Source: Aureimonas populi
Lineage (GTDB): Bacteria > Pseudomonadota > Alphaproteobacteria > Rhizobiales > Rhizobiaceae
NCBI RefSeq assembly: GCF_017815515.1
Contig: NZ_CP072611.1
Location: 2,294,001-2,358,000 of the forward strand
DNA: 64,000 nucleotides
Direction of reading: 5' to 3'
This document shows positions 23,574 through 26,524 of this stretch, piece by piece. Each line of letters starts with the position of its first letter. The first letter of the stretch is position 1. Both the position numbers and the translations under genes were made by a program. Under the pieces are notes generated by a model. It made no database searches. It was given only the letters and a program-made list of their open reading frames with translations, and was not told where the DNA came from.

Positions 23574-24092
23574 ATGTTTCAGGAGCGGATCATTCGTATC
23601 GTCGGCATCGATCCCGGATTGCGCCGGACGGGCTGGGGCGTGGTCGAGACCCTCGGCAATTCGCTTCGCTTCGTGGCGAGCGGCACCGTCACCTCCGACA
23701 ACAAGCTCGACCTCGCCTCGCGCCTGCGCCAGTTGCACGACGGGCTGGCCCAGGTCATCCACGCTCATCAGCCGCACGAGGCGGCGGTGGAGCAGACCTT
23801 CGTCAACAAGGACGCCACCGCCACGCTGAAGCTGGGGCAGGCGAGGGGCGTGGCCATGCTGGTGCCGGCTCTGGCGGGCCTTCCCGTGGCGGAATATGCG
23901 CCCAACGCGGTGAAGAAGGCCGTGATCGGGGTCGGCCACGGGGACAAGAAGCAGATCCACATGATGGTGAAGGTGCTGCTGCCGAAGGCGAGTTTCGACA
24001 CGGACGACGCGGCGGACGCCATCGCCATCGCCATCTGCCACACCCATCACCGCCAGTCCGCGCAGGCCCGCGCGGCCTTCGCCGCGCTTTAG
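23574..24092 (+). CDS. ruvC: Holliday junction resolvase RuvC
   Basis: The ATG at 23574 gives 172 residues, the normal size. The catalytic acidic residues are visible: Asp in [16 protein letters not shown], Glu in [11 protein letters not shown], and two Asp in [17 protein letters not shown]. RuvC cuts Holliday junctions symmetrically in complex with RuvAB. In most genomes ruvA follows directly; here a toxin-antitoxin pair intervenes. Confidence 0.96.
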
Positions 24093-24122
24093 ATGTTCTT
24101 GACTTGTTCCTGTTGCGGCGAT

Positions 24123-24147
24123 AGGTAATACCGAGGAGGTATTACCT
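24123..24147 (+). promoter_or_regulatory. Perfect 10-bp inverted repeat, likely AbrB/VapB operator
   Basis: AGGTAATACC (24123-24132) and GGTATTACCT (24138-24147) are perfect inverted copies around a 5-nt spacer. The ribosome-binding site GAGGAGG (24133-24139) lies in the spacer and right arm, 9 nt before the antitoxin ATG. A TTGACT at 24099-24104, overlapping the end of ruvC, could be a -35 element, which would place the repeat over the promoter. Autoregulation by antitoxin binding at such palindromes is usual for this family; binding here is inference. Confidence 0.7.
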
Positions 24148-24148
24148 G

Positions 24149-24394
24149 ATGCGCGTCACCGAAAAGGGCCAGGTCACGATCCCGAAGCCCATCCGCGACA
24201 AGCTTGGCATCAAGCCCGGCAGCGAGGTGGAGTTCGTGAGCAGGCAGCACGGCATCGTTCTGGAGAAGAGGGACGATCGCGGGGATCGGGTCGATCCCGC
24301 CGAGGTGCTGTTGCGCCATGTCGATCGTCACGCCGGCCGGTTCGATCTGGACGGGTTGCAGGCCGATGACGTCATGCGCCTGCTGCGGGACTGA
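24149..24394 (+). CDS. AbrB/MazE/SpoVT-type antitoxin (VapB-like)
   Basis: An 81-residue protein with an N-terminal swapped-hairpin AbrB domain (MRVTEKGQVTIPKPIRDKLG, then KPGSEVEFV), followed by a charged tail that should bind the toxin. It lies 3 bp before the PIN-domain toxin gene, an arrangement typical of vapBC modules. The inverted repeat at 24123-24147 abuts its start. Insertion between ruvC and ruvA is unusual. Confidence 0.88.
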   Translation: MRVTEKGQVTIPKPIRDKLGIKPGSEVEFVSRQHGIVLEKRDDRGDRVDPAEVLLRHVDRHAGRFDLDGLQADDVMRLLRD

Positions 24395-24397
24395 GGG

Positions 24398-24814
24398 ATG
24401 GCCAAGACGCTCTGCGACACGAATATCCTGATCGACCTCTTCGGCGCCGGCCAGAACTGGCACGATTGGTCGAGACGGCAGGTGGCGGTGGCACGGGGGC
24501 AGGGGCCGCTCGCCGTCAACCCGCTGATCGTGGCGGAGTTCTCGGTCGGCTTTTCCGATGAGGGCGACGTCTTCGAGCTTTTGGGCAAGGATGCGTTCGA
24601 GCATGAGCCGCTGCCTTGGAACGCCGCTTTCCGGGCCGGCAGCGCCTTCCTGACCTATCGGCGGCGCGGCGGCGACAAACGGTCGCCCCTGCCGGACTTC
24701 TATATCGGGGCCCATGCCCTCCTCGCCGGCCACCGGCTGCTCACGCGAGATGCCGCTCGCTATCGCGCTTATTTTCCCGATCTGGAGATCGTCTGCCCGG
24801 AGACCCACCCGTGA
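24398..24814 (+). CDS. vapC: PIN-domain toxin (VapC-like)
   Basis: The 138-residue protein has the PIN-domain acidic set: Asp7 ([10 protein letters not shown]), Glu47 ([12 protein letters not shown]), Asp100 ([14 protein letters not shown]) and Asp118 ([13 protein letters not shown]). VapC toxins are metal-dependent ribonucleases, often cutting tRNA or rRNA. All the catalytic acids are present, so it is predicted to be active and not a remnant. Its TGA stop overlaps the GTG start of ruvA (GTGA), so ruvA translation is likely coupled to toxin translation. Confidence 0.9.
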
Positions 24815-25428
24815 TCGGAAAGCTGAAGGGCACGCTCGACGAGATCGGCGAGGACCATGTGGTGGTGGACGTGCATGGCGTGGGCTATGTCGCCTTCTGC
24901 GGAGCGCGCACGCTCTCCTCTCTGGGCGGGGTGGGGGAGGCGGCGGTTCTGTTCATCGAGACCTATGTGCGCGAGGACATGATCCGCCTTTACGGTTTCG
25001 CCAGCGAGGCGGAGCGGGGATGGTTCCGCCTGCTTCAGAACGTTCAGGGCGTCGGCGCCAAGGTGGCGCTGGGGGTGCTCGGCACGCTCTCGCCAGGCGA
25101 CCTTGCCAATGCCGTCGCGTTGCAGGACAAGGCGATGGTCGCCCGCGCACCGGGCGTCGGCCCCAAGGTCGCCGCGCGCATCGTCTCCGAGCTGAAGGAC
25201 AAGGCCCCGGCCTTTTCAGGCGCGGCGGCGGAGGATATCGGCTTCAAGCGCAATCTGGGCGAGGGAGTCGCTCCCGCCCCGGCGGCGGACGCGGTCTCCG
25301 CGCTCGCCAATCTCGGCTATTCGCGGGATCAGGCGGCGGGCGCCGTCGCTGCCGCCGTCAAGGAAGCCGGCGAGGACGCCGCCTCACCGGTGCTGATCCG
25401 CCTCGCGCTCAAGGCGCTGAGCCGGTGA
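24811..25428 (+). CDS. ruvA: Holliday junction branch migration protein RuvA
   Basis: The GTG at 24811 gives [20 protein letters not shown], the normal RuvA start, and a 205-residue protein. The helix-hairpin-helix junction-binding motifs are visible ([20 protein letters not shown], then [19 protein letters not shown]), and the C-terminal domain for RuvB contact ends [12 protein letters not shown]. There is no good ribosome site, so initiation likely depends on reinitiation from the overlapping vapC stop. Confidence 0.95.
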
Positions 25429-25480: not shown

Positions 25481-26524
25481 ATGAGCGAGACACGCATCAT
25501 CACGCCCGAGAAGCGCGGCGAGGATGTCGACACCACGCTGCGCCCGCAGCGGCTGGACGATTTCGTCGGGCAGGCCGCCGCCCGCTCGAACCTCAAGGTG
25601 TTCATCGAGGCGGCCCGCACGCGCGGCGAGGCACTGGACCATGTGCTGTTCGTCGGCCCTCCCGGGCTCGGCAAGACGACGCTGGCTCAGATCATGGCCA
25701 AGGAACTGGGCGTCAACTTCCGCTCCACCTCCGGCCCCGTCATCGCCAAGGCGGGGGACCTCGCCGCGCTGCTGACCAATCTGGAAGAGCGCGACGTTCT
25801 CTTCATCGACGAGATCCACCGTCTGAACCCGGCGGTGGAGGAAATCCTCTATCCGGCGATGGAGGATTTTCAACTCGACCTCATCATCGGCGAGGGGCCG
25901 GCGGCGCGCTCGGTGAAGATCGACCTGTCGAAGTTCACCCTCGTCGCGGCCACCACGCGCATCGGCCTTCTCACCACCCCGCTGCGCGACCGCTTCGGCA
26001 TTCCGGTGCGGCTGAATTTCTATACGGTCGAGGAGCTGGAGCATATCGTCAAGCGCGGCGCGCGGCTGATGGGCCTTGCCATGGGCGAGGACGGGGCGCG
26101 CGAGATCGCGCGGCGCGCGCGCGGCACGCCGCGCATCGCCGGCCGTCTCCTGCGCCGGGTTCGCGACTTCGCCGATGTGGCCGGCGCCGGGCAGGTGGAC
26201 CGACGCATCGCCGACGAGGCCCTTTCGCGGCTGGAGGTGGACAGCCTGGGGCTGGACCAGCTCGACCGCCGCTATCTGGACCTGATCGCCCTGAATTTCG
26301 GCGGCGGTCCTGTCGGTATCGAGACCATCGCCGCCGCCCTGTCGGAGCCGCGTGACGCCATCGAGGATATCGTGGAGCCCTATCTCCTCCAGCAGGGCTT
26401 CATCCAGCGCACGCCGCGCGGCCGGCTGCTGACGCCCCACGCGTTCCGCCATATCGGCCTGGCCGTTCCCCCGTCATGGCAGGGCGCGCAGGCAAGCCTC
26501 TTTACCGAGGGTGACGAGGGCTAG
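25481..26524 (+). CDS. ruvB: Holliday junction branch migration ATPase RuvB
   Basis: A full-length 347-residue AAA+ motor. Motifs are [12 protein letters not shown], Walker A ([13 protein letters not shown]) near residue 60, Walker B ([11 protein letters not shown]), sensor 1 ([18 protein letters not shown], including the arginine finger), and a C-terminal winged helix ([17 protein letters not shown]). RuvB hexamers drive branch migration at RuvA-bound junctions. It lies 52 bp after ruvA. Confidence 0.97.

Follow-up and report, generated by a model that had tools for sequence, protein, structure and literature searches.

The role of chromosomal toxin-antitoxin pairs is a long-standing question, and a vapBC pair standing between ruvC and ruvA in Aureimonas populi raises it in a concrete form: is such a pair a passenger of the ruv operon, or is it controlled together with the Holliday junction genes that follow it? 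We have analysed a stretch of 64,000 nucleotides of this genome, referred to here as the window, and have compared the locus with those of its relatives. The pair occupies this one fixed place in many genera of one family, DNA damage sensed through LexA being a candidate input and RuvAB the shared output. Our preferred reading, to which we give a probability of about two in three, is that vapBC and ruvAB form one unit controlled by LexA and VapB, in which an internal promoter under LexA is followed first by the cassette and then by ruvAB. What the pair does can be tested by comparing natural relatives, some of which carry it, some lack it, some have kept only the promoter, and some have exchanged the toxin.

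Gene order and protein assignments

The features of the locus are collected in Table 1. A gap of 56 nt separates ruvC from vapB and one of 3 nt separates vapB from vapC, and the vapC stop overlaps the GTG start of ruvA by 4 nt (24811-24814). An AbrB-type antitoxin and a PIN toxin between ruvC and ruvA, with this stop-start overlap, had been named in a preliminary description of the window, and the Pfam matches, the gene order on the + strand and the positions of the codons have confirmed it. PF01850 and PF04014 both score above their cut-offs and the antitoxin gene lies directly 5' of the toxin gene, as in type II VapBC modules. For the NCBIfam equivalog NF047959 (TA_toxin_VapC), the window VapC obtained 26.4 of 80 bits, under the curated cut-off, and therefore the protein is called here a VapC-type PIN toxin and is not assigned to that equivalog. 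Among solved structures, only weak matches were obtained for VapC (VapC15, E 0.87), and VapB matched AbrB-fold structures.

Table 1. Features of the ruvC-vapBC-ruvAB locus in the window
Feature	Positions	Strand	Basis or remark
ruvC (Holliday junction resolvase)	23574..24092	+	Pfam RuvC, E 3e-47
LexA-type box GTTCTTGACTTGTTC (GTTC half-sites around TTGACTT)	24095..24109	+	GTTC-N7-GTTC pattern; 54/54 vapBC junctions of the RuvA sample
Putative -35, TTGACT, within the LexA-type box	24099..24104	+	inferred
Putative weak -10, TAGGTA, 17-nt spacer from -35	24122..24127	+	TA at that spacing in 102/113 vapBC promoters
Putative VapB operator, perfect 10-bp inverted repeat AGGTAATACC-N5-GGTATTACCT	24123..24147	+	covers -10, probable start site and vapB SD
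vapB ribosome-binding site, AGGAGG	24134..24139	+	sequence inspection
vapB-type antitoxin, AbrB/MazE fold, 81 aa	24149..24394	+	PF04014, E 1.9e-14; TIGR01439
vapC-type PIN toxin, 138 aa, D7 E47 D100 D118	24398..24814	+	PF01850, E 2.9e-9; alignments
ruvA ribosome-binding site, GGAG, inside vapC 3' end	24799..24802	+	8 nt 5' of GTG
ruvA, GTG start, 4-nt overlap with vapC stop	24811..25428	+	TIGR00084, 183 bits
ruvB	25481..26524	+	TIGR00635, 450 bits

All four acidic PIN residues reported earlier are present, and the positions of D7, E47, D100 and D118 are occupied by D or E in 114, 114, 114 and 113 of 114 orthologues at the ruv locus, respectively, N replacing D118 in one. A dead toxin in the window was rejected because these active-site residues are intact. 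In one of the 114 orthologues (G066, L040), codon 5 of the trimmed frame is a stop, which a later start may explain. An anti-phage defence family was rejected as well, since neither protein matched a family of PADLOC-DB at an E threshold of 0.01. Placement by chance or artefact was rejected because the arrangement recurs: the conservation in related strains, which had been proposed as a check, was found at the ruvC-ruvA junction of 16 of the 21 genus members and of 54 of the 150 family genomes chosen by RuvA.

Putative promoter region between ruvC and vapB

The preliminary description had overlooked two elements of the ruvC-vapB gap: a palindrome at 24123-24147 and, 5' of it, the LexA-type box at 24095-24109. 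GTTCN7GTTC is the LexA consensus given for Caulobacter (PMC12700426). This pattern, which marks promoters of the LexA regulon, and an operator palindrome, which marks those of VapBC modules, are found together at one putative promoter, the operator being putative by sequence as well. A consensus promoter scan of the region returned no sigma-70 site because the -10 is weak, and the same scan returned no terminator-like site. A single ruvC-vapBC-ruvAB transcript had been assumed earlier. One half of this assumption is supported, in that the toxin pair and ruvAB are probably co-expressed, as indicated by the 4-nt overlap, the region without a terminator-like site and a screen in Rhizobium leguminosarum (PMC11406972); the other half has to be modified, since the sequence indicates an additional promoter in the ruvC-vapB gap.

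Perfect repeats with arms of at least 7 nt were found in 82 of 113 vapBC loci, in 5 of 113 shuffled sequences, and in one of 17 loci having the box without vapBC. The TA situated 17 nt 3' of TTGACT is shared by 102 of the 113 vapBC loci; at the 17 box loci without vapBC, it was found at 17 nt in five and at 18 nt in four.

The 15-mer might be a strong -35 region only, to which LexA would not bind, so that the unit would not be controlled by damage. The sequence TTGAC does stand in the middle of the box, and the recA of the same genome has no exact box in its upstream region, only a site with one mismatch. However, the -35 accounts for 6 of the 15 bases, and the flanking GTTC half-sites persist in genomes where the -35 is altered (G008, G020 and G301), match the alphaproteobacterial LexA consensus (PMC12700426) and are absent at VapC homologues away from ruv. 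We therefore regard this explanation as unlikely. The genome itself encodes LexA (domain match at G000:C1:2694493-2694681), and the exact box GAACACAACTAGAAC lies upstream of its lexA, as in an alphaproteobacterial LexA regulon. In the 134 nt 5' of the window ruvC, there is no exact box and one site with one mismatch. The genome (3.82 Mb) contains 88 exact GTTCN7GTTC matches, compared with 43 for the reversed pattern, and many of the exact matches are therefore noise. A chance match within the short ruvC-vapB gap is unlikely, and the main weight for the box comes from relatives.

Distribution of vapBC and of the box

Relatives of VapC were found in 23 of 61 genomes, the present one included, the ruvC-ruvA junction being their location in 22 of the 23. 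Within the genus, the five genomes without vapBC have ruvC-ruvA gaps of -4, -4, -4, 13 and 19 nt. For the family, 150 RuvA places were used, which are the best-scoring among 296 genomes with a match (of 297), and are neither a random sample nor one chosen by the box. They comprise 54 junctions with vapBC, 59 empty junctions with a gap of up to 30 nt, 31 wider junctions without a vapBC match, and 6 places where ruvC is not upstream; 145 of the 150 were classed in the main table, and the remaining five, which have neither vapBC nor the box, were classed separately. GTTCN7GTTC was present in 54 of the 54 vapBC junctions, 0 of the 59 tight empty ones, 6 of the 31 wider ones and 5 of the 6 where ruvC does not adjoin ruvA. 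In a larger table of 220 genomes, enriched for box-bearing genomes, vapBC was found in 114; the box lies in the gap in 113 of them and across the ruvC stop in the last (G253).

Presence of vapBC has changed at least 37 times on a FastTree tree of RuvC plus RuvA, which was built from two short proteins and contains 213 rows. In 10 independent pairs differing in vapBC, being only those over starred branches of this tree, the box changed in the same way in 5.6 (mean), in the opposite way in 0, and was unchanged in 4.4, with a median p of 0.03.

Two kinds of unusual junctions were noticed among the relatives. In one genome (L024, G031), the ruvC-ruvA junction contains vapBC twice in tandem, and each of the two pairs has a LexA-type box of its own. 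Five others (L176 in G173, L177 in G279, L155 in G074, L151 in G278 and L154 in G318) have ruvC-ruvA gaps of 1065-1683 nt, the box being distant from ruvC.

Box tied to ruv and palindrome tied to vapBC

The pattern GTTCTTGACNTGTTC was found in 130 of the 297 family genomes (134 matches) and its reversed control in 2 genomes. Of the 134 matches, 125 precede ruvA by 61-1520 nt in the same orientation; around the other nine, no ruv or vap match was found within the surrounding 5-kb stretch. Relatives of VapC were also examined regardless of position, among 462 confirmed stretches, of which the best 80 were kept as named loci. Thirteen of these 80 are at ruvA, including those of Aurantimonas, Rhizobium, Neorhizobium and Mesorhizobium, and the box is present in 13 of 13; the other 67 are elsewhere in many phyla, and the box is present within 520 nt in none of 67, of which two, with only 155 and 296 nt of upstream DNA, provide too little to tell. 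In the sole genome of the 23 with its VapC off ruv (L021, G028), the palindrome GGTAATACC is kept and the LexA-type box is absent. Since VapC away from ruv lacks the box and this locus has the palindrome without it, the palindrome appears to move with VapBC and the box with ruv.

In several family genomes the box directly precedes ruvA and vapBC is missing, including cases in which ruvC is located elsewhere, and the box is therefore probably the SOS promoter of ruvAB itself, with vapBC placed behind it. In the order (199 genomes), 26 matches to GTTCTTGACNTGTTC were found. Outside the family there are 22, of which 12 are at ruvA, and 11 of the 12 are without vapBC. Neighbourhoods of ruvA were read at 29 of 30 loci from 91 genomes, the window's own being left out. 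Of the 27 belonging to other families, three have vapBC with one-mismatch boxes only, and five have an exact box without vapBC. The three (L438, L440 and L446, from two other families) carry vapBC 5' of ruvA with the one-mismatch boxes at the matching place, and because a one-mismatch site also occurs 5' of the window ruvC, these are weak evidence; one further vapBC locus of another family (L404) has an exact box. Both box junctions and 4-nt ruvC/ruvA overlaps occur in the other families, and either state may be the ancestral one.

An SOS box placed 5' of ruvC instead was not supported. Exact GTTCN7GTTC or its complement was found within 250 nt in 0 of the 59 tight empty junctions (shuffle rate 0.9%), and SOS control of ruvAB is therefore not universal. 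An exact box 5' of ruvC was counted in 15 of 112 vapBC loci and 4 of 37 wider gaps, both counts being inflated because six rows (G031, G173 and G279; G074, G278 and G318) took the wrong stretch.

VapBC could also be a selfish passenger, which sits behind a good promoter where clean loss is awkward and which brings no benefit to repair, the box being the old SOS promoter of ruvAB. To this explanation we give somewhat less than even odds. It agrees with the patchy presence of the pair (at least 37 changes on the RuvC plus RuvA tree; 5 of 21 genus members without it), with the box lacking vapBC in family and order, with a VapC family that is common away from ruv (67 of the 80 best named loci), and with a second AbrB-PIN subfamily in the ruvA-ruvB gap of many genomes. 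It is less easily reconciled with active-site residues that are intact in nearly all of the 114 loci, or with a box, spacing and palindrome that are kept though VapC diverges to about 45-50%, since such promoter geometry would be dispensable for a mere passenger. The conserved promoter, however, serves ruvAB too.

There were also matches of the box at other genes of the order. In two loci of other families (L403 and L413), the 15-mer box stands 5' of PA0069-family radical SAM genes, which gives a hint that these genes may be under SOS control. At L406, likewise outside the family, a GTTCTTGACNTGTTC match lies 5' of an ImuA-like gene, the ImuA match being under its cut-off and judged by eye.

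Junction of vapC and ruvA

The statement of the preliminary description that ruvA has no visible ribosome site is wrong, since GGAG stands 8 nt 5' of its GTG inside the 3' end of vapC (Table 1), and the surrounding CCGGAGA stretch is found in 16 of the 16 genus members with the pair, the window genome included. The proposal that had been built on this statement was that RuvA is translated only by ribosomes finishing vapC, so that loss of the module would be costly and the module would be fixed. The 4-nt stop-start overlap in the window and in 53 of 114 loci favours such coupling, as does the classing together of vapC, ruvA and ruvB in the R. leguminosarum screen (PMC11406972), although plain polarity gives the same result. 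The own ribosome site of ruvA argues against it, together with the 61 of 114 loci without the 4-nt overlap (abutting genes in 5, gaps of 7-27 nt in 56), the at least 37 changes of presence and the many relatives that have ruvA without the pair. These include the case that had been named in advance as speaking against the proposal: the five genus genomes of 21 without the pair keep a full-length ruvA with a TTG or GTG start, and strict dependence of ruvA on the toxin is therefore not supported. We consider this explanation improbable in its strict form.

A weaker form of coupling has survived. A vapC-like tail with GGA 5' of ruvA, in the absence of an intact pair, was found in 6 of 40 wider junctions (G084, G085, G175, G233, G256 and G281, a vapB-like ORF being kept in G256) and in 0 of the 59 tight junctions. 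The same combination of tail and GGA occurs in 39 of the 114 vapBC loci, all within the 53 having the 4-nt overlap. These leftover tails fit deletions that spared the ruvA SD, and the last 20 nt of vapC, rather than translation of the toxin, may matter to ruvA, which would account for part of the earlier proposal. SD-like motifs were found 5' of ruvA in 51 of 114 vapBC loci and in 18 of 59 tight empty junctions, which means that ruvA of this family is often without a plain SD in any setting.

Replacement of the toxin in place

The window VapC has 78% identity to that of G018 and 50% to that of G006, compared with 81% and 87%, respectively, for RuvA. Among 80 pairs with RuvA identity of at least 94%, which share members and are thus not independent, identity of the VapC core was under 62% in 45, and the median core identity in the other 35 was 0.89. 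The medians in those 45 pairs were 0.96 for RuvA, 0.96 for RuvC, 0.56 for VapB residues 1-43, 0.26 for the rest of VapB, 0.43 for the VapC core and 0.82 for the VapC tail. Profiles of DNA identity, displayed for 6 of 42 swapped pairs found, are high through ruvC and the box, drop in the operator or inside vapB, and come back at the vapC end or in ruvA. The DNA-binding half of VapB is kept and the rest replaced in some pairs (0.88 and 0.23 for G217/G027; 0.93 and 0.29 for G217/G152), and in the median swapped pair the first half has diverged too.

When VapC was divided into 16 clusters at 62%, at least 44 changes of VapC type were counted on the 213 rows of the FastTree tree. Strictly vertical descent of VapC was rejected, because close pairs are bimodal and VapC identity tracks RuvA identity weakly (r 0.27; reached by 0 of 999 permutations). 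This pattern indicates that the toxin is exchanged in situ, in the same slot of ruv.

A further and doubtful step would be to regard the slot behind the SOS promoter of ruvAB as one reserved for a toxin that varies. The box with its promoter and the vapC tail with the ruvA start would be kept, and the toxin core with the matching part of the antitoxin would be exchanged among species, the DNA-binding half of the antitoxin being kept in some pairs. SOS would then co-induce junction processing and a lineage-specific RNase, and VapB at the operator would set the amount of RuvAB in the damaged cell, so that a toxin-antitoxin module would act as a recombination regulator, possibly with selection by phages or rival toxin-antitoxin modules for changing specificity.

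Proposed control and comparison with known systems

The gene order, the box, the palindrome, the active-site residues, the ruvA SD, the conservation and the in-place replacement of the toxin are the sequence-based observations on which the preferred reading, a vapBC-ruvAB unit under LexA and VapB, is built; binding of LexA and VapB, SOS induction, toxicity and a benefit of the coupling are its predictions. In an undamaged cell, LexA on the box would cover the -35 and repress the promoter, and the VapB-VapC complex on the palindrome would cover the -10 and repress the same promoter. DNA damage would remove LexA, loss of VapB would take off the second brake, and a single message would then carry vapB, vapC, ruvA and ruvB. 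A further promoter, upstream of ruvC, presumably serves that gene. VapC, as a PIN protein of the RNase type whose active site is intact, would slow growth while RuvAB processes junctions. The arrangement suggests that the cell may arrest its growth at the same time as it turns on DNA repair.

VapBC modules, LexA-controlled toxin-antitoxin pairs and, in one species (R. leguminosarum), vapBC 5' of ruvA are already known. In the open-licence papers searched, no report was found of a LexA box at ruvC-vapBC-ruvA, of the family-wide pattern or of toxin replacement there. The closest tested logic appears to be that of higBA in Caulobacter crescentus, which is repressed by LexA and HigA and whose downstream gene higX is read when both are gone (PMC13384398). 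One promoter, repression by LexA and an antitoxin, a downstream gene that is not part of the pair, and an alphaproteobacterial LexA box are common to both, being predicted in our case. In contrast to the window, higBA encodes HigBA, with a ribosome-dependent RNase, rather than AbrB-VapC, occurs in the crescentus/vibrioides lineage only, and is followed by a gene for a membrane-bound transcription factor, not by a repair gene (PMC13384398). The Escherichia coli dinB-yafNO operon resembles the putative unit in that a type II pair shares an SOS transcription unit with a DNA-repair gene (PMC2814082). There, however, the pair follows the repair gene and is induced from the dinB promoter, whereas in the window the putative SOS promoter comes first, then the pair and then the repair genes; the account of dinB-yafNO in that source describes no swapping of the toxin (PMC2814082).

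The same order, with an AbrB antitoxin and a PIN toxin directly 5' of ruvA, is found in R. leguminosarum RL3987-RL3990 (vapB-vapC-ruvA-ruvB), where a transposon screen showed all four genes to be required for root attachment at all three pHs, vapB being classed apart from vapC, ruvA and ruvB at later stages (PMC11406972). A single transcript with polarity would give the attachment pattern, which is our reading and not that of the paper; its main text mentions neither LexA nor ruvC, and its subject is fitness in attachment rather than how the pair is regulated or how it varies (PMC11406972). Sinorhizobium meliloti VapBC10 similarly combines a PIN RNase toxin, for which cleavage of tRNA-Ser was shown, with a small DNA-binding antitoxin, but its VapB is of the helix-turn-helix type, not AbrB, and "ruv" is absent from the main text of that paper (PMC10945364). 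The present locus suggests a route by which selfish pairs can become linked to core operons, namely by occupying the stretch between an operon's promoter and its ribosome site.

Pairs in the ruvA-ruvB gap

The ruvA-ruvB gap of the window is 52 nt and contains no toxin-antitoxin pair. In relatives, for example L201 (G077), L220 (G263) and L128 (G200), this gap carries a second AbrB-PIN pair of a different subfamily. GTTCN7GTTC occurs within the ruvA-ruvB gap in 4 of 220 genomes. Of 211 gaps measured, 72 are 690-800 nt long, and each of six inspected gaps contains an AbrB-PIN ORF pair, one of which has been confirmed by Pfam.
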